Assembly (NCBI GenBank): GCA_023143095.1
Contig: JAGLIF010000008.1
Location: 1-64,000, forward strand
Length of the DNA: 64,000 nucleotides
Source: Candidatus Altimarinota bacterium
GTDB taxonomy: Bacteria; Patescibacteriota; Gracilibacteria; UBA4473
Direction of reading: 5' to 3'
The notes below the pieces were generated by a model, which ran no database searches, was not told the DNA's origin, and was given only the letters and a program-made list of their open reading frames with translations. Within the stretch, counting starts at the first letter, position 1. Every line of letters starts with the position of its first letter. Of this stretch, positions 9,217 through 54,883 are shown in pieces. Both the position numbers and the translations under genes were made by a program.

Positions 9217-9284
9217 GATATTATCAAATTATAAATTATTATACTTTCATTATATTAACTTATTTTTTTTTATCTACTGTAGTG

Positions 9285-9428
9285 ATGTTTTTGGTAGACA
9301 TTTTCGATGATAGATTGAACGAATTCACCAAACAGTTAAAGTCTTACAGTACAAAACGAGTAAACGACTTGTTCGATGTTAATGGTACCAATACTTTAAT
9401 TAAAAGAAAATACGCCACGAGAAATTGA
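9285..9428 (+). other. Possible gene remnant, 47 codons
   Basis: An ATG-started frame of 47 codons (MFLVDIFDDRLNEFTKQL...) ends in TGA at 9428. A second coding-like stretch in another frame, ENTPREIEAFYDL, overlaps its end. The sequence reads like a decayed gene and not a functional one. I do not recognise the family. It lies at the left edge of the accessory patch. Confidence 0.25.
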
Positions 9429-9506
9429 GGCTTTTTATGATCTTTAGGTGAAAATTTTAGTTCCGATATTTACTACAAGAGAAGCAATGAACATTAAAAT
9501 TTATGT

Positions 9507-12500
9507 TTAGGCTTCAACGATCTCCCTAAACCTTTCTGCCCCATTTTTTACAAAGAAGGAAACAATTCGTCGAATATCATTGCGATTATCGTGAATTTCC
9601 CATAAAAATTTAAAAGTCGAAAAAATCTCTTTTTCATAAATTCCGAAGTGAGTTTGAATGCTCGGGACACTTTCGGGCTTCATTAAAATTATCTTTAAAA
9701 TTTCAGTAACTGTTTTTGGTGATTTTTTCGCATAAAATTCGATATTTTTCATCAATTCGTATTCCCATTCAAGTTCTCCGTTTGAACATTGTAAAGTAAG
9801 AAGAAGGTTCTCTAACATTTTTTCTACATCGAACGTCGTTTGGCTAACCCAGTAACAAAATTTACTTAATTCTTTTTGTGAAACGTTCTCTTGTTGGAGA
9901 TACCAATTCCAAAAGTTTAAAAATTTATCCGATGAAAAAGCATTTTTACACCTTTTATCGTTGTCATCACTTCTTTCAATGGTACTTCGTCCCAACCAAT
10001 CAATAAAATGGGCTTTTTTCTCGGAATTTGCGTTTTGGAAAAAATATTTAAACTCGGGACTGTCAAATTCCATAAAATCAAAGGCAAAAGCAATGGCGTA
10101 ATGGTCTCCAATGCTTTTATCAAGTTGGTGTTCCCCCTTCCGTAAAGAATGACTTTTTAAATAATTTCGGCGGGAATAATTTTCAGTATCAACCGATACC
10201 GAAAATTTATAGTATTCAAGCATAAATTCGAACATTTCTTTAGAAAGATTATTCATTAAATAACCTTCCCAAGCCGCCCAAAATAATCTTGGGTTTGTAT
10301 CTTTTGGAAAAATCTTCTTAACATTTTCTTCAAGCCATTTCCTATCAAAAAATAGCCAAGTAAAATATTTTCCGTACAAAATCCGAATGGAGGTAGTGGC
10401 TTCTTTTTTCTCATCTAAATGGTCGTCTAAAACCTTTCTTATTTTAGGAGAAAAAGAATAATTTTTTCGGTCGGGAGAGTTTAAATACTCCCTCCATAAA
10501 AATAGAAACAAAGCCTCAATCGCTCTCCCTCTCAAAGAGTTAATGGCTATGTGTAGGGGGTCGCCTCCCCACGAGTTTTCTTTATCGGCTTTGGTCGGTT
10601 CGTCTTCAACTTTCGGGTCGGGATTATGGGTAAAATATTCGATGACTTGAAAAATCGTTTCTTGGTACTTTAAAAATTCAAATTGGATTTGGTTTGGGGC
10701 AAGCCTTAAAATTTCTTCTACCAAACTTAACATTCCCCGAAATACTTCACTCCAACCGTATAAAATTCCTTCCCAAAAAGTTTCTTTTTCCGCTTCTAAC
10801 GGAAACTTTGAAACATTGTCTCTTTGGACAATATTTAACATTAAATCGAATATTTTTCCGTATTCAATCGGCTCGCTATTTTCGTTTTGCTTTTGTAAAG
10901 ATTTTTGGATTCCTTCAAAAAATGCATAAACATAATCCGAACGAATTTCGGGGTCGGCAAATAACAAGGCGTTTTTAGAAAATTTTGAAGGGTTATTTTC
11001 AACCGCTTGCGTAAGGATTCCTCGTAGTCCGCTAATACTTGGCTCATCTCGTTCTTGCGGAACAATTTTTGTATTTTTCAAATAAGTAACCAATTCGCGA
11101 ACTTCCATTTTCTCTATGTCGCCAAGATTAAGGGGGGCAACCCCACCAACACCCCTTGCTATACGACCAAATTCTTCTTGAGTGTCGATTTCAAAATCTT
11201 CAATAACTTCTATTTTTCGTTTTTTGGCTTCTTCAAAGTGTTGAGAAGTAAGATAGTCCGAAATAATCGAAAGAAGGTTTGATTTTATATGCAAATTTAG
11301 TTCTTCATTTTCACTCCAAGAGGCTTTAAATAAAAGTTCGATGTATTTATTTCTTTGAATTTCCGTAAGACTGGAAAAACAATCTCTTAGTAAAATTTCA
11401 TATTCCCGAAATTCTCCCCTAACTAAAAAATCTCGGTCTAAAAATTCAAATAAAACGTCTTTCAGTCTTCTTTTTAACAACGAGCGGTAAGTATTTAAGA
11501 AGTATAGTTCAAGACGTTTAAAGAGGGAAATATTGGGAAATTTTGAGAAAATTGAATCGAATTCTTTTTGAAACTCGGATTTCCCCAAATTTTTCTTATG
11601 AATTTTGAATTGCTCGGACAAAAACCACTTGATAGTCGAAGCAAGAATTTCTTCAACACGGTAAAGGGAATGATAATCTCCCTTTTTCCCAATTTCTAAA
11701 GAATTAACTGTTTTTACGGTATAATCCAATGGGTCGTCATAGTCGAATACTGGTGTTTTTTTCCCAGATTTTCTTTTTGCCGTTTTTCGTTCGCAAAAAT
11801 TGGTATAAATATTCCCAACTTCTTTTAACACTTCTTCGTAATATTCTTCGGGGATATTCAAGAGGGTTTGGCAAAAATTAGTTATCTCGTAATCGTCAAA
11901 ATATACGGCTCTTTCAGAATATAATTTATCATCTTCGGGAATAGGTTTAAGCGTGAAAAGTGTTTTAAAAAGTCGAAACGAACTTTTTACCTCGCCTCCC
12001 TCTACCAATATTTCCAAAACTTTCTTATACAAAAATCCGTTCCTCAATTCTCCCGCAACCTTAACCCAATTTTCCATACAAATTTTATTAGCAATCGGAA
12101 CTAAAAGTTTCGCGGACATAGATTCTAACGCCCACAAAATACTATTTACAACATTTAAACTGGTTTTGTCCGAAACTTTTATACCCAAAATCACTTTTTG
12201 AAGTGTTTCTGGGGATTGTTCTCCAAGGGTTCTTATATAGGCACATTGAGGGGGGCAAGTCCACCTTTTATCTCCCTCAAATTCTTGGTTTAGAAGTTCT
12301 AATAGTTTCTTAGTTTTTAGAAATTCAAACCAGTCTTCTCCGATGTTTTTGTAGAAATGTTGTCCCGCACTCTGATTAGAGTTTATAAGTTTTCTTAAAA
12401 CTCCCAGATTAACGTTTTTAACACCGTTTTCTATAATCGAATCGATTTTTTCATATACCCCAACTTGGTCTAACAAAAGGTGGTTTAAATAATCTTCAAA

Positions 12501-12941
12501 TTTATCGCAGATAATACGAAAATTTGCCTCGTCTATTTCTGTAAGATTTTGATTTAAAATGTTCTTGGCGGCAACCAATGCATTTTTCTTTTTTTCTTTG
12601 CTATGATGACAAATATTTGTGAAAAAACAGTAATAAAAAATATCGTAGAAGGTATCTGCAGTTTCACTTCCTCCCGTTTTAAGTTTTTGGGAATGTTCTT
12701 TTGCCTTCCCTAAGTTATAAAGAAGTTCCCGAAAACAATGAGCCACTGCGGCTCTCCAATCGGGAAGCATACTTGAAAAATTCGGGTCTAATAAATTTAC
12801 CCCGGTTATAAAAACTTTCGAATCCACGGTTGTTCCTTCGATTCCCCCATATATCCTATCAATTTGGGAAACAATCTCCCTTTGTCTCTTTGTTAGACTG
12901 GGGTTTGGAGGTTCAAAAGAGGCATTTTTATCTTGAGTCAT
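9507..12941 (-). CDS. Very large orphan protein (1144 residues), helical, unknown
   Basis: I do not recognise this protein. It has no signal peptide, no membrane segment, and no Walker A, protease or nuclease motif I can identify. It is rich in Leu, Glu, Lys and aromatic residues in amphipathic patterns, as expected of an alpha-helical repeat scaffold. It opens with TKRQREIVSQIDRIYGGIEG and LPDWRAAVAHCFRELLYNLG. Its codon use differs from neighbours: Pro is often CCC, and CCCGAA and TTCGGG-type strings are common. This suggests acquisition from elsewhere. It sits beside a decayed subtilase gene, in what looks like a small defence or mobile patch. A role in anti-phage defence is only a guess from context. 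Confidence 0.75.
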   Translation of the reverse strand: MTQDKNASFEPPNPSLTKRQREIVSQIDRIYGGIEGTTVDSKVFITGVNLLDPNFSSMLPDWRAAVAHCFRELLYNLGKAKEHSQKLKTGGSETADTFYDIFYYCFFTNICHHSKEKKKNALVAAKNILNQNLTEIDEANFRIICDKFEDYLNHLLLDQVGVYEKIDSIIENGVKNVNLGVLRKLINSNQSAGQHFYKNIGEDWFEFLKTKKLLELLNQEFEGDKRWTCPPQCAYIRTLGEQSPETLQKVILGIKVSDKTSLNVVNSILWALESMSAKLLVPIANKICMENWVKVAGELRNGFLYKKVLEILVEGGEVKSSFRLFKTLFTLKPIPEDDKLYSERAVYFDDYEITNFCQTLLNIPEEYYEEVLKEVGNIYTNFCERKTAKRKSGKKTPVFDYDDPLDYTVKTVNSLEIGKKGDYHSLYRVEEILASTIKWFLSEQFKIHKKNLGKSEFQKEFDSIFSKFPNISLFKRLELYFLNTYRSLLKRRLKDVLFEFLDRDFLVRGEFREYEILLRDCFSSLTEIQRNKYIELLFKASWSENEELNLHIKSNLLSIISDYLTSQHFEEAKKRKIEVIEDFEIDTQEEFGRIARGVGGVAPLNLGDIEKMEVRELVTYLKNTKIVPQERDEPSISGLRGILTQAVENNPSKFSKNALLFADPEIRSDYVYAFFEGIQKSLQKQNENSEPIEYGKIFDLMLNIVQRDNVSKFPLEAEKETFWEGILYGWSEVFRGMLSLVEEILRLAPNQIQFEFLKYQETIFQVIEYFTHNPDPKVEDEPTKADKENSWGGDPLHIAINSLRGRAIEALFLFLWREYLNSPDRKNYSFSPKIRKVLDDHLDEKKEATTSIRILYGKYFTWLFFDRKWLEENVKKIFPKDTNPRLFWAAWEGYLMNNLSKEMFEFMLEYYKFSVSVDTENYSRRNYLKSHSLRKGEHQLDKSIGDHYAIAFAFDFMEFDSPEFKYFFQNANSEKKAHFIDWLGRSTIERSDDNDKRCKNAFSSDKFLNFWNWYLQQENVSQKELSKFCYWVSQTTFDVEKMLENLLLTLQCSNGELEWEYELMKNIEFYAKKSPKTVTEILKIILMKPESVPSIQTHFGIYEKEIFSTFKFLWEIHDNRNDIRRIVSFFVKNGAERFREIVEA

Positions 12942-13048
12942 CTGCCTTCCAAACTATCAAATTTTTGGTAAAAAGTAAACTGAACTACTCTCCACAATTC
13001 TTTCTCCCCACAAAATCATCCCTCCCCTATAACTAGGCGAAATTTTGA

Positions 13049-13899
13049 TGAATCTTTTTTTATTAAACCAGATTTATTGCACTTTGATAGCAACCTAGTA
13101 AGAAGCGGAGACGGTATAGCCTCAGAAGAAAATGGTGTTTATTCTGCGGATATAAATATTGATAAGCTAAAAAGAGACTGTAGTACGAGCTTTGCTGCTC
13201 CCCTAGTTGCACATGACGCGGGGATTCTTCACAATGTATCCAGAGTATAATAATTCTATAAAGGCATTATTGATTCATTTTGCTGAAAAAGTACAAGCAG
13301 ATCAGATTAAACATGAAGGTTTAAAGGGAAGGCTGATGGGGTTCGGAAAAACACATATAGAAAGAGCCCTTCATTCATTAAGTTATTCATCAATATCGAT
13401 AATTGAAGATGAAATTGAAATGAACCAAATAAAGAGAATAAAAATTCCTATCCCCAAAAGCCTAGAAGGTTCTGCAAGGCGAAGAATGCGTCTAAAAAAG
13501 ACACTTGTTTATAATCCAATCGTCGCCCCAAGAGATTCTGATAATTATAATCCGATTAAGATATCAGCCTGTATTATTAGACCGGATGATAAAAAAAAGG
13601 AAAGAGAATTAGAAAGCTTTTCTACCAGAGACAAGCTTTCTGTTGCACATAAAAAATCAAATGTAAAAAAGTACTCTCAGATTGAGGTAAGTACAAACAA
13701 TGGTCATCTAGGTAAATTTTGGGAAATTGAGGTTAGGTGTGAATGTAAAGTTGAAGACTTCGATATTCCAAGTGACTATAAACAAAACTATTCTTTAGTA
13801 TTGACGATTGAAGATATGAATTAGGATGAATCAATTGATATTCATCAGGAAATTTTACAAATGATTGAAGTAGATATTCCAATTGAAGTTCAAATATAA
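13049..13899 (+). pseudogene. Decayed C-terminal part of a subtilisin-like (S8) protease
   Basis: Conceptual translation gives IKPDLLHFDSNLVRSGDG, then STSFAAPLVAHDAGIL. The second carries the serine nucleophile motif GTSFAAP of peptidase S8 with G replaced by S. At about 13240 a one-base frameshift moves the frame to YPEYNNSIKALLIHFAEKV, which continues to a TAG at 13822-13824. Past that TAG the same frame continues DESIDIHQEILQM to TAA at 13899. There are therefore three lesions: loss of the N-terminal half with the Asp and His residues, a frameshift, and an internal stop. The frame opening at 13207 is only the second fragment. The arrangement resembles the S8 proteases paired with AAA ATPases in bacterial accessory loci, but no ATPase partner is present. 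Confidence 0.7.
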
Positions 13900-25655: not shown

Positions 25656-27251
25656 ATGAGTACAACAATTTTGCCTAAAAACTTAGTTAATCTTCAAGAA
25701 GCATGTCTATGGGCGACAAAGTTTTTGCATAGAGAAATTTCTCCGACAAATATTTCTTATCTTATTCAATACGGAAAAGTTAAAAAATATGGTGAGAATG
25801 GAAGTACACAAGTAAATATTCGTGATCTCAAAAAATATTATCAGTCTTTTAATGGGAAAAGAGAGGAACAATGGAAAGAAAAACTTGGAAATGATTTAAA
25901 TTGGGAATTGTCATTTGATCACATTCGTGAAAAAGATAGCACAAAACATATTCATCGACTTCATCCATATAAGGGAAAATTTATTCCACAACTTGTTGAA
26001 TATTTTCTCGATGATCACACCGATAAATTTAAAACTCAAAGTTTTTTCAAAAAAGGAGATATTATTTTAGATCCATTTTCTGGTTCTGGAACAGCGCTTG
26101 TGCAAGCAAATGAACTTGGAATGCACGCAATTGGCGCTGATGTTTCAAAATTTAATTGTACAATTACCGATTCAAAGCTTTTGGATTATGATTTTGATTT
26201 ATTGGTTAAAGAAGTTTCAATTCTTAAAAATGTGATTCAAAGTTTTGAAACGAAAAACAATGTTGAACAATTTGAAAGAGAACTTTTAAGCGAACTTTGC
26301 GAATTTAACAAAAAGCATTTTCCATCTCCACAATTCAAAAGGGATGTTTACACGAAAAAAGTGAATGAAAATATTTTTGGAAAAGAAAAAGAAGCTGAGT
26401 TTTTGAAAATTTATAATTCACTTATTGAAAAATACAAAATCAAATTGAGACAAAACAAAAACGATAATTTCCTCGACAAGTGGTATATCAAAAATACACG
26501 AGATGAAATTGATTTTGCTTTTGAACAACTTAAAAAAGTAAAAGATGAAAAAATAAAAAGGATTTTAGCAATTATTTTGAGTCGCACCATTCGCTCGTGT
26601 CGCGCAACAACACATTCGGATTTGGCAACCTTAAAAGAACCGCAACTTACGGCTTATTATTGTTTCAAACACAAAAAAATCTGTAAACCACTTTTTTCAA
26701 TTAAATATTGGTTTGCACGATATGCAAATGATACAATTGTGAGATTAAGAGAATTTTCAAAAATTAGAACAGATTCACATTGGGCGACAATTTCAGCTGA
26801 TTCTCGTACCGTTGATATTTTTGGAGAAATTAAAAAGCGAAGTTCAAAATTTTTTGAGTTTTTACAAAAACAAAAAATTCGTGGGATTTTTTCATCTCCT
26901 CCGTATGTGGGACAAATTGATTATCACGAACAACATGCTTATGCGTATGATTTGTTTGGTTTTAAACGCAAAGATAAACTTGAAATTGGTCCACTTTATA
27001 AAGGGCAAGGAATCGTCGCACGAGAAAGTTACATAGATGGAATCGCAAAAGTTTTACTTAATTCTCGTAAATTTATGGTTGATGATTTTGATGTGTTTTT
27101 GGTGGCAAACGATAAGTGGAATTTATATCCAAGCATTGCCAAAAAAGCGGGAATGAAAATTGTAAATCAATATAAACGACCGGTTTTAAATCGCACAGAA
27201 CGAGATAAAAATCCGTATTCTGAGATTATTTTTCATTTAAAAAAATTGTAA
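25656..27251 (+). CDS. Type II DNA methyltransferase with N-terminal HTH-like region
   Basis: The S-adenosylmethionine motif ILDPFSGSGTALVQANELG begins at residue 137, and the catalytic motif SPPY is at 414-417 (FSSPPYVGQIDYHEQ). SPPY is usual for N4-cytosine and some N6-adenine enzymes. About 270 residues, presumably the recognition domain, separate the two motifs. The first 65 residues (LVNLQEACLWATKFLHREISPTNISYLIQYGKVKKYG) look like a MerR/Xre-type helix-turn-helix, possibly for autoregulation of the operon. It is followed after 2 bases by a small zinc-ribbon gene and further on by the endonuclease gene. Confidence 0.88.
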   Translation: MSTTILPKNLVNLQEACLWATKFLHREISPTNISYLIQYGKVKKYGENGSTQVNIRDLKKYYQSFNGKREEQWKEKLGNDLNWELSFDHIREKDSTKHIHRLHPYKGKFIPQLVEYFLDDHTDKFKTQSFFKKGDIILDPFSGSGTALVQANELGMHAIGADVSKFNCTITDSKLLDYDFDLLVKEVSILKNVIQSFETKNNVEQFERELLSELCEFNKKHFPSPQFKRDVYTKKVNENIFGKEKEAEFLKIYNSLIEKYKIKLRQNKNDNFLDKWYIKNTRDEIDFAFEQLKKVKDEKIKRILAIILSRTIRSCRATTHSDLATLKEPQLTAYYCFKHKKICKPLFSIKYWFARYANDTIVRLREFSKIRTDSHWATISADSRTVDIFGEIKKRSSKFFEFLQKQKIRGIFSSPPYVGQIDYHEQHAYAYDLFGFKRKDKLEIGPLYKGQGIVARESYIDGIAKVLLNSRKFMVDDFDVFLVANDKWNLYPSIAKKAGMKIVNQYKRPVLNRTERDKNPYSEIIFHLKKL

Positions 27252-27253
27252 TT

Positions 27254-27493
27254 ATGAAAGAAAAAAAATCGTTAAATGTTGTTTATGATAAAGATTTAGA
27301 AACTTTATTAAAAAATATCGGAATTTTTGATGATATTTGTGAAAAAAAGAAAAAATGTAAATTTTGCAAAACAGAAATTACAATAGAAAATTTACATTCA
27401 TTATTTCCTGAATCTGACGATATAAAAATTGTTTGCGACAATCCAACTTGTATCAAAAAACTTTCTGAATATTTAAACGATAAAAAATTATGA
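27254..27493 (+). CDS. Small zinc-ribbon-like protein of the RM operon
   Basis: 79 residues. Two cysteine pairs, CKFC (about 36-39) and CDNPTC, are spaced 25-30 residues apart and fit a single zinc-binding knuckle pair. No known family is recognised. It starts 2 bases after the methyltransferase stop and overlaps the next start by 4 bases (ATGA), so it is translated as part of the operon. A controller or adaptor role for the restriction system is possible but only inferred from position. Confidence 0.65.
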   Translation: MKEKKSLNVVYDKDLETLLKNIGIFDDICEKKKKCKFCKTEITIENLHSLFPESDDIKIVCDNPTCIKKLSEYLNDKKL

Positions 27494-28593
27494 TAATAGC
27501 AGATCAATTTTTAGATTGGCTTATCCTTTTCTGGATTTTATTCAAACTATATGGAGGTTGGATACTTTTATTATTTTTTATTCCATATGTCTTATTTTTT
27601 CCTGATCAATTCCAAAAAAATTTAGAATTTATTTTTAAAGGCTTGGAAAAATTAAAAATATTTGGCACTTGGGCAAATAAAAAAAAGATTACTTATGGTA
27701 TACAAGGGAGAATAAACCACTATGTTAATAAGTATCTTTCAAAAGAAATAAAGGATTTTGTGCAATCAAATATAAAACTTGAATGGGTAGATGAAAATCA
27801 AACGGAAGAAAGTTTTAGAGAAAAAGGGAAACTTATTGTTAGAATGAGAGAAAATGATAATCAGAATAAAAATTTTATAAATGCATCAATGGTTTTTATT
27901 TCTAAAAACTTACTCAATAAAGCAAAATTATATATTTCAAAAAAACAACGAGAATCTGTAGATTTATATGTTGCAAAAAAACTTTTTGAAACTGAAAAAG
28001 AAGAGGTTTTGATTCAATTTATTACTGACTTTTTTAAGGAAGGAAATGATGATAAAAAAATAGGAAAGTTTTTAGAGAAATACAATAGAATTGATAAAGC
28101 AGCACTATTTTTCCCAGTTTTTATTCAAGAAATGACATTTTTAGGAGAAAAGGTTTTTGGATCATCATTGCCTAAAAATAAAGTTTTTGATGAAGTTAAT
28201 GGTTTGATTGATTTTTTGTTTGGATGGGCAAAAAGAAAAAGTGGAGATTCCATCAATAATATTTTCACTGGTCAATTTTGCAAATTTGGGGTTATGCTTG
28301 TTGGAATTGAATATAGAATTGAAAATGAAGGAGAAAGCCCCTATAAAAAACATATAAAGTTTTTATTAGAAAAAGAAGTTGAAACAATTTATTTAATCGG
28401 AGATGTGAAACAAGAAGATTTCATAAAAAATCTTTGTTCAGATAATTTTTTAAAAACAAATAATCTATCACTTTTCAATAATAAAAAATATGAAGCAATA
28501 ACTTTTAATAAAAACAATGAAGAAATAAAAGGAAAAACTTATTTAACGGTTTTAAGAAAGAATGAAATTGAACATTATTTTTCTAATATTTAA
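27490..28593 (+). CDS. Membrane-anchored protein of unknown function in the RM operon
   Basis: 367 residues. The first 40 contain a strongly hydrophobic stretch (WLILFWILFKLYGGWILLLFFIPYVLFF), enough for one or two membrane passes. The remainder is soluble and Lys/Glu-rich (ITYGIQGRINHYVNKYLSKEIKDFV... LIVRMRENDNQNKNFINASMVFISKNLLNKAKLYISKKQRES). No nuclease, ATPase or HTH motif is visible, and I do not recognise the family. It is translationally coupled to the gene before it and 3 bases from the endonuclease gene. A membrane protein between methyltransferase and endonuclease is unusual. Confidence 0.7.
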   Translation: MIIADQFLDWLILFWILFKLYGGWILLLFFIPYVLFFPDQFQKNLEFIFKGLEKLKIFGTWANKKKITYGIQGRINHYVNKYLSKEIKDFVQSNIKLEWVDENQTEESFREKGKLIVRMRENDNQNKNFINASMVFISKNLLNKAKLYISKKQRESVDLYVAKKLFETEKEEVLIQFITDFFKEGNDDKKIGKFLEKYNRIDKAALFFPVFIQEMTFLGEKVFGSSLPKNKVFDEVNGLIDFLFGWAKRKSGDSINNIFTGQFCKFGVMLVGIEYRIENEGESPYKKHIKFLLEKEVETIYLIGDVKQEDFIKNLCSDNFLKTNNLSLFNNKKYEAITFNKNNEEIKGKTYLTVLRKNEIEHYFSNI

Positions 28594-46645: not shown

Positions 46646-48097
46646 ATGTTTGAACAATCATTTAAAAATATCGACAACATTCTTCACACTGATTCTGGAT
46701 GTGGAACAGAGCTTGATTATGTGGAACAAACTTCTTGGATTTTGTTTTTGAAGTATCTTGATGATTTAGAAGAAACAAAAAAAGCAGAGAATCAGCTTGC
46801 AGGGAAAGAGTATGAATATATTTTAAAACCAGAATATCGATGGGACATGTGGGCATGTCCAAAAACTGATGATGATAAGCTGGATCATCATAAAGCACTT
46901 GATGGAGATGATTTGAAAGAGTTTGTGAATGATGAGCTTTTTCCATATTTAAAACAATTTCGATCAGAAGAGCCAAACACTATTGAATACAAAATTGGGG
47001 AAATTTTTCATGAACTCAAAAATAAAATTTCGAGTGGATATAAACTTCGAGAAATTTTGAATACTGTTGATAACATGCATTTTCGTTTGTATGAAGAAAA
47101 ACATGAACTTTCTCATCTCTACGAAGCAAAAATTGCTAAAATGGGAAATGCTGGACGAAATGGAGGAGAGTATTATACACCTCGTCCGCTTATTCGTACG
47201 ATTGTAAAAGTTGTTGATCCTAAAATTGGAGAGACTATTTATGATGGTGCTTGCGGAAGTGCTGGGTTTTTAGTTGAGGCTTTTAGTTTTTTGACACAAA
47301 ATCAAGTACAATTTTCATCAAGTCAGATGGCTACGCTACAAAATGAAACTTTTTATGGGAAAGAAATAAAATCTCTTGCCTACATTATTGGAATAATGAA
47401 TATGATTCTTCATGGTGTAGAAGCTCCAAACATTCGGCATATGAATACGCTTGCTGAAAACATAAACGATATTCAAGAAAAAGATCGTTACGATATTATT
47501 TTAGCAAATCCTCCTTTTGGTGCAGGTATTGGAAGAGAAATACAACAAAACTTTCCTATAAAAACAGGGGAAACAGCGTCTTTGTTTCTTCAGCATTTCA
47601 TCAAGATTCTCAAAGCAGGAGGGAAAGCAGGAATTGTTATTAAAAATACTTTTTTGAGCAATACAGATAATGCTTCCATTGCGATTCGTAAACTTTTACT
47701 AGAAAATTGTAATTTGCACAGTGTTTTAGATTTACCAGGGGGAGCATTTACGGGGGCAGGGGTAAAGACGGTGGTTTTGTTTTTTAAAAAAGGTGAATCA
47801 ACTAAAAAAGTTTGGTTTTATCAATTGAATTTAGATAGAAATCTAGGAAAAACAAATCCGTTAAATGAAAAAGATTTAGCGGAATTTGTGGAATTACAGA
47901 AAGACAAAAAAGATTCTGAAAATTCTTGGAGTGTTGATGTGGCTGATTTGGATGAATCTACTTTTGATTTATCGGTGAAGAATCCGAACAAGAATGATGA
48001 GGTGGTTTTGAGAGAACCTAAGGAGATTTTGGAGGAAATTGCGGAGTTGAATCGGGAAAGTGGGGAGGTTTTGAGGGAGATTAGGAAAGTTGTTTAA
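46646..48097 (+). CDS. hsdM: Type I restriction-modification methyltransferase subunit
   Basis: N6-adenine methyltransferase subunit of a type I system. The N-terminal helical domain (residues 1-150, EYVEQTSWILFLKYLDDLE-like) is followed by EYYTPRPLIRTIVKVVDPKIGETIYDGACGSAGFLVEA, where GACGSAGF is the SAM-binding motif. The catalytic motif is ILANPPFGAG. The end (LDESTFDLSVKNPNKNDEVVLREPKEILEEIAELNRESGEVL) is typical. 483 residues. First gene of a five-gene operon; the next gene starts 9 bases later. Confidence 0.95.
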   Translation: MFEQSFKNIDNILHTDSGCGTELDYVEQTSWILFLKYLDDLEETKKAENQLAGKEYEYILKPEYRWDMWACPKTDDDKLDHHKALDGDDLKEFVNDELFPYLKQFRSEEPNTIEYKIGEIFHELKNKISSGYKLREILNTVDNMHFRLYEEKHELSHLYEAKIAKMGNAGRNGGEYYTPRPLIRTIVKVVDPKIGETIYDGACGSAGFLVEAFSFLTQNQVQFSSSQMATLQNETFYGKEIKSLAYIIGIMNMILHGVEAPNIRHMNTLAENINDIQEKDRYDIILANPPFGAGIGREIQQNFPIKTGETASLFLQHFIKILKAGGKAGIVIKNTFLSNTDNASIAIRKLLLENCNLHSVLDLPGGAFTGAGVKTVVLFFKKGESTKKVWFYQLNLDRNLGKTNPLNEKDLAEFVELQKDKKDSENSWSVDVADLDESTFDLSVKNPNKNDEVVLREPKEILEEIAELNRESGEVLREIRKVV

Positions 48098-48106
48098 CTT
48101 TGAATT

Positions 48107-50149
48107 ATGATTAAAAATACGACATTTACAGATAAAAGTATTGATCAAATAGGACTTCCAAAGGACTATAAAAAGGCTATATCTGAATATATTAGAAATG
48201 GTTTTGAAGCAGGAGCATCAAAAATAGAAATCAATTTTTCTGGGAATACAACGGGTTTTATTGAGAAATTTGAAATAAAAGATAATGGGAAAGGCATAAA
48301 TTTTAATTTGTTGGATAAATATTTTGGAAGATTATTGGATTCTCATAAACAAAAAGATAAGACCTCTTCTGAAATTCATGGTGGAAAAGGTAAAGGACGA
48401 TTATCGTTTCAAACTTTTTCAAGTAGGGCTAAATGGAAAACTGTATATAAACATAATAAAAACTTTTTTGAGTATACGATTGTGGTTGATAGCAAGAATA
48501 GGAACAAATATGATGATGGATTAGCAGATGAAAAAAGAACTCCACCTAAAAGTGAAATAAAACAAACGGGGACAACTGTTGTATTTGAGAATATTAAAAA
48601 TATTACACTTGATGAGTTAAGCTCTTATGAGCTGAAAAATTTTTTAAATTATAAATTTGGTTGGTTTTTATTACTAAATAAAGAAAAAAATTATCAAATA
48701 TCTATAAATGGGATCAACATTGATTATGAAAGTATTATTGCGGATTTGGTAGAAACGGAAGAAGAAATAGAAGGATTCAATTTTCAAATAAACTATATAC
48801 GTTGGGATAATAAAATTGGAGAAAATGCACTTTACCACTTCTTAGAGGTGTATTCATTGATTGGAGAAAAGCATCGAGAAAATACTGGGTTTAATAAAAT
48901 AGGAGGGGGCGCATATGGTTTTTATCATAGTGTTTATATAAAAAGTGATTATTTTGAAACCTTTCATCTTGCTGAAAATCAAGAAGAACAAGGGAATTTA
49001 CTAAAAAATCATAATCAACATGAAAAAACTTATAAAAAATTAAAAATATTTTTGAATAAATTTTTAAAAGAAAAAAGAAATGACTTTTATCGACTTGGTG
49101 CTAATAAAAAAATCAAAGAGTTTGAAGAAAAAAAAGTATTTCCAAAGTTTGCTGATAATAAATATGACCAAGAGCGGAGGAATGATTTTGCAACTGTATT
49201 CAGAGAAATATATTTGTTAGAACCAATAGTTTTTCAAAATTTAAAACCAATTCAAGAAAAATCTTTACTAGGAATGCTTAATCTTTTATTAGATTCAAAT
49301 GAAAGAGAAAATGTCTTAACTATTGTTGATGGCTTTGTTTCAAATATGGATGCAGATGGACGAAAAAAATTAGCAGAAATCTTAAAAAAGACAAGTTTTA
49401 ATAATATCGTTAGGACTATAAAATTAATAGAAGGCAGGTTTGAATCTATTGAAGTGTTAAAGCGACTTGTTTTCGACCTTAAAGAATTTACAAATGAAAG
49501 AGATCATATTCAAAAAATTATAGAAAATAATTATTGGTTGTTTGGGGAACAATTTCACTTAACTGGTGCGGATGAAAAGTTTGAAATAATGTTAAATAAT
49601 TATATGGCATTTTTAGAAGGAAATCCGACTAAGATAGAAAAGAAAAAATTCAAAGTTGATAAAATAAATAAGAATAGAAGACCAGATATTTTTCTTTGTA
49701 GACAACAGGATCTACCTAGTCCCAAAAGTAATGATGAAAGTATTGAGGAAAATATTATAGTTGAGCTAAAGAGACCGACTGTTCATATTGGTATGGAACA
49801 ATATCGACAAATTGAAGACTATATGAATTTCATCATTAACGAGGATCAATTTAATAGTGAATTAAGGCAATGGAAATTTTATATAATAGGGAATAGAATA
49901 GAGAAAGAGGTTAAACAAAAATATAAAAGTTTTGAAAAAGAGGGGAAAAAATTTCTTGTAAATAAAGTGGAAAATTATGAAATTTATGCCGTATCATGGG
50001 ATGATCTTTTTCAATCATTTAAAAGTCGACATAAATATCTATTGGATAAATTAAATTTTGATAAACAATCAATTAACGAAGAGTTAAAATCAAAAGGGGT
50101 AGATTTCAGTAAAATTGGATCAGATAAGTTATCAAAATTAATAACTTAA
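48107..50149 (+). CDS. GHKL ATPase fused to a PD-(D/E)xK nuclease domain, within the type I RM operon
   Basis: 680 residues. The N-terminal GHKL (Hsp90/MutL/MORC-type) ATPase has the Mg-binding helix EYIRNGFEAGAS (Glu27, Asn31), the DNGKG motif (59-63) and the glycine-rich lid HGGKGKGRLS (91-100). The C-terminal domain (about 500-680) carries RPDIFL (Asp527) and VELKRPT (Glu553, Lys555) followed by EQYRQIEDY, a Shedu/DUF4263-like nuclease pattern. It lies between hsdM and hsdS, 5 bases before hsdS. MORC-like GHKL proteins linked to RM systems are known in general. This fused nuclease may act on invaders that escape the type I enzyme, but that is inference. Confidence 0.82.
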   Translation: MIKNTTFTDKSIDQIGLPKDYKKAISEYIRNGFEAGASKIEINFSGNTTGFIEKFEIKDNGKGINFNLLDKYFGRLLDSHKQKDKTSSEIHGGKGKGRLSFQTFSSRAKWKTVYKHNKNFFEYTIVVDSKNRNKYDDGLADEKRTPPKSEIKQTGTTVVFENIKNITLDELSSYELKNFLNYKFGWFLLLNKEKNYQISINGINIDYESIIADLVETEEEIEGFNFQINYIRWDNKIGENALYHFLEVYSLIGEKHRENTGFNKIGGGAYGFYHSVYIKSDYFETFHLAENQEEQGNLLKNHNQHEKTYKKLKIFLNKFLKEKRNDFYRLGANKKIKEFEEKKVFPKFADNKYDQERRNDFATVFREIYLLEPIVFQNLKPIQEKSLLGMLNLLLDSNERENVLTIVDGFVSNMDADGRKKLAEILKKTSFNNIVRTIKLIEGRFESIEVLKRLVFDLKEFTNERDHIQKIIENNYWLFGEQFHLTGADEKFEIMLNNYMAFLEGNPTKIEKKKFKVDKINKNRRPDIFLCRQQDLPSPKSNDESIEENIIVELKRPTVHIGMEQYRQIEDYMNFIINEDQFNSELRQWKFYIIGNRIEKEVKQKYKSFEKEGKKFLVNKVENYEIYAVSWDDLFQSFKSRHKYLLDKLNFDKQSINEELKSKGVDFSKIGSDKLSKLIT

Positions 50150-50154
50150 TACTA

Positions 50155-51429
50155 ATGACAAAACAGATCCCAAAATATTGGCAAATGAAAAAACTCGGAG
50201 AAGTTTGTGATATAAAATCCAGTAAAAGAGTTCATAAAGTTGATTGGAGAGAAAAAGGAGTTCCATTTTATAGAGCTCGCGAAATAGTTAAGTTGGCTGA
50301 AAATGGATTTGTAAATAATGTTTTATTTATTTCTAAAAATTTATTTGAAGAATTTACAAAATTGAATGGATCACCAAAAGAAGGTGATATTGTTGTTTCT
50401 GCCGTTGGAACACTTGGAAGATGTTATCGAGTAAAAAAAGAGGATAAATTTTATTTTAAAGATGCATCAGTTTTATGGTTTGATAATTTTAAAAATATTA
50501 ATTCAAAATATGTAGAATACTTATTTTTATCAGAATTAGTAAAAAAACAAGTAATGAATAAATCGATGGGGGCAACTGTTGGAACATTAACAATTACTCG
50601 TGCTAAAAACATCCAAATCCCCCTCCCACCTCTCCCCGAACAAATCCGCATTACAAAAATTCTCGATGAAACTTTTGGAAAACTGGAAATTGCCAAAAAG
50701 AATGCGGAGAAAAACTTAAAAAATGCGAAGGAGTTGTTTGAGAGTTATTTGCAGGGGGTTTTTGAGAATGGTGGAGATGATTTCTCCTTCTCTAAGGCTA
50801 CGGAGGACAGGTGGGAGAAGAAGACATTGGGGGAGGTTATAGATTTTTTTAATGGTTATGCATTTAAAAGCAAAAATTTTGTAAAAGAATCAAATACACA
50901 AATAATTAGAATGGGGAATCTATATCAAAATAAACTAGATTTAAATAGACATGCAGTATTTTATCCTGATAATATTTCTAATAAATTAAAAAATTACATT
51001 TTAATTGAGGATGATTTAATTATTTCATTAACAGGAACAACTGATAAAGAAGATTATGGGTACACTGTTCAAGTCCCACTATCAAATAAAACTTTATTAT
51101 TAAATCAACGGATTGCTAAAATAATAGTTTTAGATAAAGAAAAAACTTTAAAGGATTTTTTACTTTATTTATTATTATCTCGTACTTTTTTAGATAAACT
51201 ATATAAAACTGCAAACGGAACTCGACAAGCGAATCTATCGACTGTAACAATGAAAGGCATTCTTGTTAATTTCCCAAAATCTCTCCAAACCCAACAAAAA
51301 ATAGTCAAAAAACTAGATTACCTCTCTACCAACACAAAGAAACTCGAAAAAATCTATCAACAAAAACTGGATGATTTGGATGAGCTAAAAAAATCATTGC
51401 TTCAAAAAGCCTTTGAGGGTAAATTATAA
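50155..51429 (+). CDS. hsdS: Type I restriction-modification specificity subunit
   Basis: Chooses the two half-sites of the recognition sequence. 424 residues with two target recognition domains, each followed by a conserved helical spacer: TITRAKNIQIPLPPLPEQIRITKILDETFGKLEIAKKNAEKNLKNAKELFESYL in the middle, and LQTQQKIVKKLDYLSTNTKKLEKIYQQKLDDLDELKKSLLQKAFEG at the end. The middle spacer is encoded by unusually C-rich DNA (around 50608-50650), unlike its surroundings, as expected if recognition domains are exchanged by recombination at conserved spacers. It begins 5 bases after the GHKL-nuclease gene. Confidence 0.94.
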   Translation: MTKQIPKYWQMKKLGEVCDIKSSKRVHKVDWREKGVPFYRAREIVKLAENGFVNNVLFISKNLFEEFTKLNGSPKEGDIVVSAVGTLGRCYRVKKEDKFYFKDASVLWFDNFKNINSKYVEYLFLSELVKKQVMNKSMGATVGTLTITRAKNIQIPLPPLPEQIRITKILDETFGKLEIAKKNAEKNLKNAKELFESYLQGVFENGGDDFSFSKATEDRWEKKTLGEVIDFFNGYAFKSKNFVKESNTQIIRMGNLYQNKLDLNRHAVFYPDNISNKLKNYILIEDDLIISLTGTTDKEDYGYTVQVPLSNKTLLLNQRIAKIIVLDKEKTLKDFLLYLLLSRTFLDKLYKTANGTRQANLSTVTMKGILVNFPKSLQTQQKIVKKLDYLSTNTKKLEKIYQQKLDDLDELKKSLLQKAFEGKL

Positions 51430-51461
51430 ATAAGTTATATTGACTACATAATTTGAAAATT

Positions 51462-52481
51462 ATGAAATTTACTCGTACAAAAAAAATATTATTTACAAAT
51501 AATAAGGGAGGTGTTGGGAAAACAACACTGGCTTTTAATTGTGCTATGTCTTTTGCAAAGCAAGGTTATAAAACTGTTTTAGTTGATTTAGATCCTCAAT
51601 GTAATTTATCAAGATTGGCTATTGGAGATATTAGATATGAAAAAACATTGTTTTCTTCATCCGAGAAAGATATTTATGATGTATTGAAAGGTGTTATTGA
51701 AGGTGGTTCTGATATTGATTTGAATGTGCCTTTTATCTCAGTCCCAAAAAGTGATGATAATCTTTTTTTAATGAAAGGTAGTGTAAATCTTTCTCTTTAT
51801 GAAAATATACTTGTTACTGCTTATGGGCAAGCAGCATCAGGTCAACAGCTTGGTTATTTTCAAACAAGTGCTATTGATAGATTCCTTAGAAAAAAAGGAC
51901 TTGATGATGAAATAGATGTTTTTGTAATTGATACCTCACCAAGTTTATCATTACTTAATAGAATTATTTTTCTTGGTTCAGATTATTTTATTGTTCCTAT
52001 GATGCCAGATGCTTTTAGTACTCAAGGAATAGAAAATTTAGGAAGTGTTTTTGAAGAATGGAAACAAAATTGGAAAAATACAGGCAAGGCACTTTCTGGA
52101 AATATTGAAAGTAAATATGTTCTTTCAGGTGAAGGTCTATTTGTTGGATATATAATCAATTCGTATAATGTTTATGGTCATCAGCCAATAAAAGATCATC
52201 GCCATTGGATTGAAGAAATTCCTAAAAAAGTAAAAAAACATCTTTCAGAAAAACATTGTCGAAATGGGTTAGTTGAAAAAAGTTGGAATTCCTCATTGGC
52301 AAAAATACAAGATTATGGAAGAATTCCATCTAAGTGCCAAGAGGAAGGTGGAGCTATTTTTGATTTAGATCCATTATCTATAGCAGAAATTCATCAAGGT
52401 ACTAAAGAAAATATTGAAAAAGCAAAGAAAGAGTTTGAAGATCTTTCAAATAATATTTTAGATATATTAAAAGAATATTAA
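51462..52481 (+). CDS. ParA-like ATPase within the type I RM operon
   Basis: 339 residues from ATG 51462 (a TTG at 51453 is less likely). It has the deviant Walker A FTNNKGGVGKTTLAFNCAMSFA, the switch VLVDLDPQCNLSRL, and VFVIDTSPSLSLLNRIIFLGSDYFIVPMMPDAFSTQG, all as in ParA/MinD/Soj proteins. No parB gene or parS-like repeats lie nearby, and the gene is embedded between hsdS and hsdR, 8 bases before hsdR. It may be an accessory of the RM system instead of a partition protein. A similar placement has been noted by me only from this window. Confidence 0.85.
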   Translation: MKFTRTKKILFTNNKGGVGKTTLAFNCAMSFAKQGYKTVLVDLDPQCNLSRLAIGDIRYEKTLFSSSEKDIYDVLKGVIEGGSDIDLNVPFISVPKSDDNLFLMKGSVNLSLYENILVTAYGQAASGQQLGYFQTSAIDRFLRKKGLDDEIDVFVIDTSPSLSLLNRIIFLGSDYFIVPMMPDAFSTQGIENLGSVFEEWKQNWKNTGKALSGNIESKYVLSGEGLFVGYIINSYNVYGHQPIKDHRHWIEEIPKKVKKHLSEKHCRNGLVEKSWNSSLAKIQDYGRIPSKCQEEGGAIFDLDPLSIAEIHQGTKENIEKAKKEFEDLSNNILDILKEY

Positions 52482-52489
52482 TTTTTTCT

Positions 52490-54883
52490 ATGAACGAAGC
52501 AGAAACTCGCGCCGAATATATCGATCCAAAACTCAAACAAGCTGGCTGGGGAAAAGTTGAAAAATCTCGAATTTTGCGAGAAAGAGAATGCAAGATTACG
52601 GATGGAAAAATTCAAGTAGGAGGAACAAGGAGCAAACCTGAAATTGCCGATTATATTTTGGTATATAAAAATAAAAAAATAGGCGTTATTGAGGCAAAAA
52701 AAGATGAACTTGCAGTGGGAGAAGGGGTGGCTCAAGCAAAGTCTTACGCAGAAAAATTACATATTGATTACACCTATTCAACAAATGGAAAAGAGATTTA
52801 TGAAATTTGTCTTAAAACTGGCGAAGAAAAATTAATTGATTCGTTTCCTTCTCCTGATGAACTTTGGAATAAAACTTTCTCTGATCAAAATGAGTGGAAA
52901 GATGAATTTGCCAACCAACCATTTGAAGATATTGGCGGAACCAAGAAACCGAGATATTATCAAGAGATTGCAGTTAATAAAACCCTTGATGCTATTGCGG
53001 AAAAAAAAGACAGGTTATTGCTTACATTGGCAACGGGGACGGGGAAGACATTTATTGCGTTTCAAATTGCTTGGAAGCTTTTTCATGCTCGTTGGAATCT
53101 GAAACGAGATGGACGAAGACGACCAAGGATTTTGTTTTTAGCTGATAGAAATATTTTAGCAGATCAAGCTTTTAATTCTTTTTCTTCTTTTGATGAGGAT
53201 GCTTTGGTGCGTATCAACCCGCTTGATATTCGCAAAAAAGGAGGTGTGCCAATGAGTGGCAGTGTTTATTTTACAATTTTCCAGACTTTTATGAGTGGAA
53301 AAGATAACACGCCTTATTTCGGAGAATATCCACCTGATTTCTTTGATTTCATTATTATTGATGAGTGTCATAGAGGAGGAGCCAATAACGAAGGGAATTG
53401 GCGGGGGATTATGGAATATTTTTCACCTGCTGTTCAGTTGGGATTGACCGCTACGCCAAAAAGAAAAAACAATATTGATACCTATGAATATTTTGGGGAG
53501 CCAGTTTATATTTATTCTCTTAAAGAAGGGATTAATGACGGATTTTTAACTCCATTTAAGGTCAAAAAAATCAAAACGACTCTTGATGATTATGTATATA
53601 TTTCTGATGATCAAATTGTTGAAGGTGAAGTAGAAGAGGGGAAAATTTATGAAGAATCTGATTTTAATCGAATTATTGAAATCAAAGAACGCGAAGCTCA
53701 TCGAGTGCAAATAATGATGAACGAAATAAATCAAAAGGAAAAAACGATTATTTTTTGTGCCACGCAAAATCATGCTTTGGCTGTTCGTGATTTGGTAAAT
53801 CAAATAAAGGAAAATAAAGACCCGAATTATTGCGTACGCGTAACGGCAAATGATGGTGCGCGAGGAGAACAATTTTTGCGAGAATTTCAGGATAATGAAA
53901 AAATCATTCCAACTATTTTAACGACTTCTCAAAAGCTTTCTACAGGAGTGGATGCTAGGAATGTACGAAACATTGTCTTAATGCGTCCAGTGAATTCTAT
54001 GATTGAATTCAAGCAAATCGTGGGGCGTGGAACGAGGGTTTTTGATGGAAAAGAATATTTCACTATTTATGACTTTGTAGAGGCTTATAAACATTTTGCT
54101 GATCCAGAATGGGATGGTGAGCCATTGGAGCCAGAATTATGTTCAAAATGTGGCAAAGATCCTTGTATTTGTGAAAAAACATCTCCTAGACCTTGTAGAG
54201 TTTGTGGGAAAACACCGTGTATATGCGGAAAAAGTATACCAAAAAAATGTCCAAAATGCGGCAAACTTCCATGTGAGTGTATAAAAAAACTAAAAATTAA
54301 GTTGCGTGATGGAAAAGAAAGAGAGATTCAACATATGATCTTGACTTCATTTTGGAGTACTGATGGAAAACCTATTTCAGTAGAAGAATTCATGAATAAT
54401 CTTTTTGGGGCAATGCCAGAATTTTTTGAAACTGAAGAGGAGTTACGAACAATTTGGTCAAATCCAACAACTAGGAAGACCTTTTTAGATAAAATTGCTG
54501 AAATTGGATATGGAAGAGATGAACTTGAAATATTACAAAAAATGATTGATGCAGAAAAAAGCGATTTATTCGATGTTTTGTCTTATGTTTCATTTCTCAC
54601 TATACCTATCTCAAGAGACGAAAGAGTGGCACGAGCTAAAGATAAAATATTTGAAGGATTAGATGAAAAACAGAAAGAATTTTTAAATTTTGTACTTTCA
54701 AAATATGAAGAAAAGGGTGTGGACGAGTTATTTGAAGAAAAATTACCTGTATTGTTGAATATAAAATATCACGCTATTGCTAATGCTGAAAAAAAATTAG
54801 GAAATGTTGATAGGATTCGTTCAATTTTCTTTGCATTTCAGAAAAATTTATATGCGAAAAGTGGAAAATACAAAATGTCGTAG
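52490..54883 (+). CDS. hsdR: Type I restriction endonuclease subunit R
   Basis: Translocates and cuts unmodified DNA. 797 residues: N-terminal nuclease domain with GVIEAKKDELAVGEGVAQAKSYAEKL (PD-(D/E)xK), then a superfamily 2 helicase with TLATGTGKTFIAFQIAW (Walker A), FIIIDECHRGG (box II), LTATPKR (box III) and IVGRGTRVFDG (box VI). After the helicase comes a Cys-rich insertion at residues 551-597: three copies of C-x2-C-G-K-x-P-C-x-C. The C-terminal 190 residues are helical. The stop codon TAG lies inside a family B repeat. Confidence 0.95.
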   Translation: MNEAETRAEYIDPKLKQAGWGKVEKSRILRERECKITDGKIQVGGTRSKPEIADYILVYKNKKIGVIEAKKDELAVGEGVAQAKSYAEKLHIDYTYSTNGKEIYEICLKTGEEKLIDSFPSPDELWNKTFSDQNEWKDEFANQPFEDIGGTKKPRYYQEIAVNKTLDAIAEKKDRLLLTLATGTGKTFIAFQIAWKLFHARWNLKRDGRRRPRILFLADRNILADQAFNSFSSFDEDALVRINPLDIRKKGGVPMSGSVYFTIFQTFMSGKDNTPYFGEYPPDFFDFIIIDECHRGGANNEGNWRGIMEYFSPAVQLGLTATPKRKNNIDTYEYFGEPVYIYSLKEGINDGFLTPFKVKKIKTTLDDYVYISDDQIVEGEVEEGKIYEESDFNRIIEIKEREAHRVQIMMNEINQKEKTIIFCATQNHALAVRDLVNQIKENKDPNYCVRVTANDGARGEQFLREFQDNEKIIPTILTTSQKLSTGVDARNVRNIVLMRPVNSMIEFKQIVGRGTRVFDGKEYFTIYDFVEAYKHFADPEWDGEPLEPELCSKCGKDPCICEKTSPRPCRVCGKTPCICGKSIPKKCPKCGKLPCECIKKLKIKLRDGKEREIQHMILTSFWSTDGKPISVEEFMNNLFGAMPEFFETEEELRTIWSNPTTRKTFLDKIAEIGYGRDELEILQKMIDAEKSDLFDVLSYVSFLTIPISRDERVARAKDKIFEGLDEKQKEFLNFVLSKYEEKGVDELFEEKLPVLLNIKYHAIANAEKKLGNVDRIRSIFFAFQKNLYAKSGKYKMS

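Follow-up and report, generated by a model that had tools for sequence, protein, structure and literature searches.

The first 64,000 nucleotides of contig JAGLIF010000008.1 from a Candidatus Altimarinota bacterium (this whole stretch is hereafter called the window) carry a single uninterrupted open reading frame (ORF) of 1144 codons on the reverse strand (positions 9507-12941), whose product was given no name by Pfam, NCBIfam and PADLOC scans and is referred to here as the orphan. We tentatively favour the reading, to which we assign a little less than an even chance, that the orphan is a mobile protein of phage defence that follows the design of defence-associated sirtuin 1 (DSR1) but with its effector exchanged. 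A long helical solenoid would sense a phage component or the loss of restriction, and would switch an N-terminal domain carrying a conserved arginine and histidine (the R/H domain). This reading draws on the homology within the orphan family, the DSR1 homology of one of its branches, the domain architecture, purifying selection on the gene, its transfer, and the linkage of its relatives to restriction-modification (R-M) genes.

Architecture of the orphan family

A preliminary description of this locus had reported an orphan of 1144 residues, and the reading frame is indeed intact. The same description saw no identifiable catalytic motif, which holds insofar as no library domain was matched: the protein yields no Pfam family at an expectation value (E) of 1 or less (no SIR2, NTPase or nuclease domain) and matches neither PADLOC models (E ≤ 10) nor NCBIfam models (E ≤ 0.1). 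A conserved pair of residues, R71 and H112, does exist, as detailed below. Searches of PDB sequences returned two collagen chains (E 0.05 and 1.8) that were treated as chance, and a profile search gave none. No description of the orphan family was found in titles and abstract starts of the open-access literature, with subscription journals and preprints outside the scope of the search.

Homologues were sought in overlapping samples of relatives and of genomes from the phylum and class (60, 379, 379, 13, 328, 45 and 338 genomes). Fifteen genomes, including that of the window, carry one, and the most distant members are approximately 20-31% identical; a match in genome G209 (E 0.008) was left out of this count. 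The N-terminal helical domain spans residues ~14-175 (12417-12902, reverse strand), as judged from alignments, predicted helices and its occurrence as a separate ORF in relatives. Within it, R71 (codon 12729-12731, reverse strand) and H112 (the first histidine of an HH pair; codon 12606-12608, reverse strand) are kept in 10 of 10 and 14 of 14 rows of two alignments, the larger of which includes a Streptomyces relative and many pairs of just 20-30% identity. The two conserved positions lie about 40 residues apart, and the histidine is followed by histidine or arginine in 12 of the 14 rows, which is reminiscent of HEPN domains. The 14-row alignment leaves out G163, whose N-terminal domain lies off its contig, and the decayed G720 homologue, whose N-terminal domain is in the 10-row alignment; its G164 row starts at a contig end, where the alignment is uncertain.

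The R/H domain is fused to the solenoid in the window, G019, G187, G641, G321, G060, G506 and G922. Because five relatives (G243, G176, G234, G566 and G720) encode it in an ORF of its own, immediately 5' of that for the solenoid, it is a module that accompanies the solenoid. A search with the profile of this domain gave 14-3-3 as its best match (E 0.045), which was treated as chance.

The remainder of the protein (residues ~156-1144; 9510-12476, reverse strand) is predicted to be an alpha-helical solenoid and is presumed to be the sensor arm. The preliminary description had proposed structure prediction and a fold search, and these were run. An AlphaFold2 model built from ten alignment rows has a mean predicted local distance difference test score (pLDDT) of 75.2, a predicted template modelling score of 0.49, and 813 of 1144 residues at pLDDT 70 or above; a single-sequence prediction (pLDDT 40) was discarded. 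The model is all-helical, with an N-terminal bundle followed by a long superhelix, and its closest matches are the HEAT/ARM-like CAND1, importins, PP2A scaffold and condensin subunits, which point to no specific function. One phage-defence protein, Avs4 (8dgf, in which the arm is bound to a phage portal), is among the PDB fold matches listed (50 per table), DSR2 is not among them, and a fold search of viral structures gave none at E ≤ 0.001. The arm of Avs4, a STAND NTPase, is similarly shaped (Z 10.0 over 644 residues), but with a root-mean-square deviation of 21 Å the match is weak and unspecific, and the orphan has no NTPase or nuclease domain match at the Pfam threshold given above.

The G321 homologue (locus L021, 8508-12005) additionally carries an N-terminal LexA-type DNA-binding domain (Pfam LexA_DNA_bind, E 4e-15). 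Judging from this domain, that family member may bind DNA or control transcription.

Relationship to DSR1 and linkage to restriction-modification genes

The PADLOC Dsr1 model (PDLC04166) matches the C-terminal regions of the homologues from G922, G506, G060, G164 and G321 with E values from 2e-100 to 3e-37. The alignments cover model positions 513-1225 in G922 (E 2e-100) and 309-1210 in G060 (E 1e-51), and in G506 (E 7e-59) the alignment pairs residue 167 with model position 295. One of the branches of the family is thus homologous to DSR1 over its C-terminal helical region, from about position 295 to 1225 of the 1227 model positions. Because the G506 match starts at residue 167 and model position 295, the solenoid of this protein would start where SIR2 would end, if the SIR2 boundary is taken from DSR2. 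No SIR2 domain was found in the orphan, whose N-terminus aligns instead with a different helical domain, the R/H domain of ~165 residues. The orphan family also differs from DSR1 in being often linked to R-M genes.

The window protein is tied to a DSR1-related superfamily transitively, through intermediates. Over almost its full length, the window-led profile A1, in which 5 of 10 rows match Dsr1 (some rows are fragments), can be aligned with the G060 protein (E 1.5e-72), and a direct comparison of the window protein with that of G321 gives E 5e-62. The same profile aligns with the C-terminal ~900 residues of a haloarchaeal 1510-residue 'ATP-binding protein' (E 1.1e-26); here the N-terminal part that precedes the shared arm is annotated as ATP-binding. 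In build, the orphan resembles DSR2, which combines an N-terminal module with a long alpha-helical C-terminal sensor; as described in extracts of two reports, this arm recognizes a tail tube protein and thereby controls SIR2 (PMC10973363, PMC10981675), which occupies residues 1-303 (PMC10973363). DSR2 differs in that PDB sequence searches did not return it and in possessing the SIR2 NADase that the orphan lacks.

Upstream sequence is available for 12 phylum loci (the window and G019 included), and in 8 of these the homologue lies downstream of R-M genes and in the same direction. These upstream genes encode a DpnII-type R-M system in G243, an Eco57I-type methylase with a PLD-SNF2 helicase (Pfam) in G176 and G187, the same type of methylase with a helicase-like ORF (judged by eye) in G641 and in the decayed G720 locus, type III Mod/Res in G566, the HsdS of a type I operon in G060, and a type I HsdR in G922. 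Four R-M types (I, II, IIG and III) are therefore represented. Neighbouring ORFs overlap by up to 29 bases or are separated by up to ~66 bases, and one small gene intervenes in G641 (an AbiU2-like HEPN gene) and in G566. The four loci lacking such linkage are those of the window, G019, G321 and G506. Upstream sequence runs off the contig in G163, G164 and G234, which were not counted, and neither were the Streptomyces and haloarchaeal relatives, whose two neighbourhoods list no R-M gene.

Because 149 of 286 phylum genomes have Eco57I-type methylase genes, mostly one to three copies each, a chance adjacency to R-M genes in most loci is not credible, this frequency serving as a yardstick rather than as a formal test. 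In an unrooted tree, R-M-linked members stand on both sides of the window/G019 pair, and the linkage is therefore old or recurrent. The pair itself is probably a stand-alone derivative, to judge from the tree and the neighbourhoods.

Several of these neighbourhoods hold further genes. The AbiU2-like gene of G641 (locus L053, 7670-8317; Pfam E 4e-7) sits between the methylase and the homologue, which is followed by a PD-(D/E)XK gene. In G060 (L041, 10808-11488), the hsdM gene of the type I operon apparently lies in two pieces, separated by an ORF that we take from its resemblance to be transposase-like, and the homologue is still intact. The G720 homologue (L056, 5859-9515) has decayed into several pieces, while the Eco57I-type methylase and the helicase-like ORF, which is truncated by the end of the locus sequence, remain. 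A 97-residue nuclease-like fragment upstream in G234 was confirmed by neither Pfam nor comparison. In G506, an SU10-type capsid gene lies ~2 kb from the homologue. On a plasmid of Streptomyces sp. NBC_00212 (L058, 4699-12702), the distant homologue WP_331721222.1 lies near Tn7-like TniB, transposase and TnsA genes, with one hypothetical gene between.

Transfer of the orphan gene and its decayed neighbour

The preliminary description had proposed that the orphan gene was transferred, and comparisons with relatives agree with this view. Among 60 relatives, the window genome included, the gene was found only in the window genome (1.2 Mb) and in G019, a genome (86% complete) from another genus of the same family. 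The two proteins are 84% identical over 1144 residues (the G019 copy is spread over two contigs), and the ratio of nonsynonymous to synonymous substitution rates (dN/dS) is ~0.11, which indicates that the orphan has been retained as a working protein. DNA similarity between the two genomes at this locus comprises the orphan gene and 65 base pairs 5' of its start codon (12942-13006, reverse strand; blastn) and ends there and at the stop codon. Because the synonymous divergence of the orphan (dS 0.74) is far below that of topA between the same genomes (dS 2.3, near saturation; 66% identity), the gene most simply moved between the two lineages after their split. Homologues in the core genome with matching codon use, which had been named as the finding that would speak against transfer, were not what the searches returned: 1 of 19 other genomes of the same family and 3 of 338 genomes of the class, its own included, carry the gene.

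Codon use, described earlier as unlike that of the neighbours, is odd in particular respects. The comparison set consisted of mechanically called window ORFs, 44 of at least 150 residues and 20 of at least 350. CCC encodes 13 of 35 orphan prolines versus 28 of 497 in the other 43 ORFs, and CCCGAA, counted on both strands, occurs 9 times in the 3.4 kb of the orphan versus 11 times in the remaining 60.6 kb (~14-fold enrichment). The GC content at third codon positions (GC3, 0.309) is the highest among the 20 longer ORFs. However, the overall synonymous-codon deviation per codon ranks only fifth among these 20 and 23rd among all 44. In G019, CCC accounts for 13 of 40 orphan prolines and 23 of 95 in six neighbours, and the GC3 of the orphan (0.286) is under that of all six (0.291-0.392). 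The codon use is less odd in G019, yet it fits neither genome exactly. Assembly contamination was considered as a source of the gene and rejected, the gene being one ORF within a 98.7-kb contig.

The orphan lies 5.6 kb from topA-ydcF in the window and 3.7 kb from it in G019, in opposite orientation relative to topA. ORFs tested from the intervening G019 sequence gave no significant match in the window, and a shared insertion hotspot near topA-ydcF is possible. The 4 kb upstream of the G019 orphan contain a gene for a large serine recombinase and a terminase-small-like match that is weak (E 0.001). Searches with the orphan by tblastn gave no match in plasmids, phages or viral contigs at the limits used, and PHROGs gave a single match of unknown function (E 0.054). 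Plasmids do carry more distant family members (5 and 9 records). No plasmid matched the G187 relative, and no phage the G060 relative.

A subtilase remnant lies ~54 base pairs from the orphan gene and diverges from it. It matches the PADLOC IetS model (E 6e-10) and was delimited by tblastn with the intact IetS of genome G058 (749 residues). One piece (12996-13238, forward strand, frame +3) corresponds to residues 445-527 and retains the serine motif STSFAAP (serine codon at ~13188-13190), and the other (13234-13899, forward strand, frame +1) corresponds to residues 527-747 and is interrupted by a TAG codon at 13822-13824. The pieces are 54-59% identical to the G058 protein and together hold residues 445-747 in two frames with one stop; the longest open frame begins only at 13207, ~210 base pairs farther from the orphan than the remnant itself. 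IetS sequence upstream of residue 445, the N-terminal 60%, was not found in the window by tblastn. The aspartate and histidine of the catalytic triad presumably lie in that part, and the remnant at 12996-13899 does not hold a complete Asp/His/Ser triad. By this comparison, 12996-13899 represents the decayed C-terminal part of an IetS gene, which encodes the subtilase of the IetAS system, and the frameshift, internal stop, lost N-terminus and kept serine motif noted in the preliminary description are all real.

IetS searches of the 60 relatives matched the window genome and G058 alone. In G058 (L042, 4429-7787), the intact IetS gene is accompanied by that of an AAA ATPase of 366 residues, taken as IetA; a tblastn search with this protein found no IetA in the window (best E 0.39). 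Upstream of the G058 pair is a gene for what we take to be a CoiA-like protein. The G058 IetAS genes read TGA as a residue, a trait that, together with small genomes among all the relatives, points to Patescibacteria. Recoding behind the stop in the IetS remnant was rejected, since that stop is TAG and is accompanied by a frameshift.

On the other side of the orphan, beside its 3' end, a forward-strand frame at 9219-9425 has 69 stop-free codons (47 from the first methionine) followed by stops. It is perhaps the short decayed frame of the preliminary description; the stop-free run is real, and no resemblance to IetS, IetA or any compared locus was found. Comparison of the two orphan flanks (9217-9520 and 12936-13100) revealed no common repeat of 10 or more bases, three direct repeats of 9 bases, and no insertion signature.

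Elsewhere in the window, an apparently complete type I R-M operon (46646-54883) encodes HsdM, a GHKL/HATPase protein, HsdS, a ParA/AAA_31 protein and HsdR. We take the GHKL/HATPase protein to be paraMORC-like. The inserted ATPases look unusual, and the operon could partner the orphan. A protein of 531 residues with an N6_N4 DNA methylase domain (25656-27251) is followed by an ORF of 367 residues that has no Pfam match at E 0.001 (27490-28593); the region 25656-28593 is possibly a second R-M or methylase locus.

Proposed mechanism, alternatives and implications

We hypothesize that the C-terminal ~990 residues form an alpha-solenoid of the kind that serves as sensor in DSR-type proteins, and that the helical domain of ~165 residues with its conserved arginine and histidine stands in the place of SIR2. 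Sensing, trigger and effector activity are those we infer from DSR2 and Avs4, and by this analogy sensing most likely falls to the solenoid, with the R/H domain as effector. At rest, the solenoid would hold the R/H domain in check. Release would follow the detection of a phage component (such as a structural protein, the trigger of DSR2 and Avs4) or the loss of restriction activity, and the freed R/H domain would act as effector, perhaps as a HEPN-like ribonuclease, and stop infected cells from growing. The homologue is the last gene of an R-M operon in many relatives, where it would serve as a second line of defence, and the window copy would be a stand-alone derivative lying against a decayed IetAS locus.

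Several results weigh against this proposal. The strong Dsr1 match is, in these searches, restricted to one branch of the family: matches are weak for the G163, G234, G243 and G176 proteins (2e-17 to 6e-15), the R-M-linked G187 and G641 proteins give none at E 0.01, and the window protein gives none even at E 10. The predicted solenoid fold is generic, so its matches give a fold class and not a function. Neither the window copy nor the G019 copy has R-M genes beside it. A HEPN-like nature of the R/H domain is a hypothesis only. The Rx4-6H motif is absent from the window protein and unconserved in relatives, where single rows such as that of G243 have a fitting arginine; ten R/H domains gave no Pfam HEPN family at E ≤ 10, although fast-evolving HEPN domains can escape profiles; and alignment of the R/H domain with the AbiU2-like neighbour by hhalign gave E 0.29.

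The R-M-linked HEPN proteins PrrC, AbiU2 and ApeA resemble the family in that many of its relatives stand behind R-M operons and in the conserved histidine, often as HH or HR, but the orphan is far larger, and its family has neither a conserved Rx4-6H motif nor a Pfam HEPN match. Excerpts of one report describe PrrC as acting behind EcoprrI and count at least 16 R-M-linked HEPN clades (PMC3710099). This precedent, together with the linkage in 8 of 12 loci to four R-M types and the type I operon found elsewhere within the window, gives some weight to the view that the orphan watches a restriction enzyme, being silenced by an R-M complex and freed by anti-restriction proteins, with the type I operon ~34 kb away as its partner. 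We regard this as rather unlikely, because four unrelated R-M types argue against one specific protein-protein contact, and because the window copy, its sister and two other copies are not embedded among R-M genes as PrrC is. The generic HEAT/ARM-like fold, the LexA_DNA_bind fusion in G321 and the absence of a Dsr1 match in the window protein itself would fit an importin- or CAND1-like helical scaffold with a housekeeping or regulatory role. Such a role is improbable given the very patchy presence in the class, the recent transfer, the R-M, recombinase or Tn7-like genes near relatives, and the Dsr1 homology of one branch.

We judge it equally improbable that the orphan is cargo protecting a mobile element, by exclusion or anti-defence, rather than the host. 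The recombinase gene and terminase-like match near the G019 copy, the Tn7-like genes near the Streptomyces relative and the capsid gene near the G506 copy would suit such cargo, but R-M systems are the neighbours in most loci with context, and the window protein had no match in phage and plasmid collections or viral contigs, even if distant members occur on plasmids. Finally, the preliminary description had read the orphan and the subtilase as two parts of one decayed defence system, and their divergent adjacency invites this reading. We consider it very improbable. The subtilase is IetS, which is paired with IetA in G058, where 10 kb of sequence and a search of the genome revealed no orphan; G019 has the orphan and no IetS match at its level of completeness; and no intact locus with both genes was found, 0 of 59 other relatives searched for both carrying the two together. 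The DNA shared with G019 also stops where the IetS remnant starts, and membership of IetAS in a system with the orphan is not supported. The description was correct in that a decayed defence gene lies beside a surviving large protein that is, by its relatives, defence-related.

Extending our preferred reading of the orphan as an anti-phage protein with an exchanged effector, we entertain the possible but doubtful generalization that DSR1 is one branch of a group of modular immune receptors. These would share a single phage-sensing solenoid behind exchangeable front ends (SIR2, ATP-binding, LexA-type or the undescribed R/H effector), would back up R-M systems of types I, II, IIG and III in Patescibacteria as a second line, and would, in the case of the window copy, have been freed to spread between lineages by itself. 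If this is true, the DSR1 sensor would be separable from the sirtuin, and one arm would be reused with different front ends in a manner that resembles STAND receptors but without an NTPase. R71 and H112 offer two residues whose mutation would probe a new effector. Very small genomes would, on these terms, back their restriction systems with a receptor-type guard.

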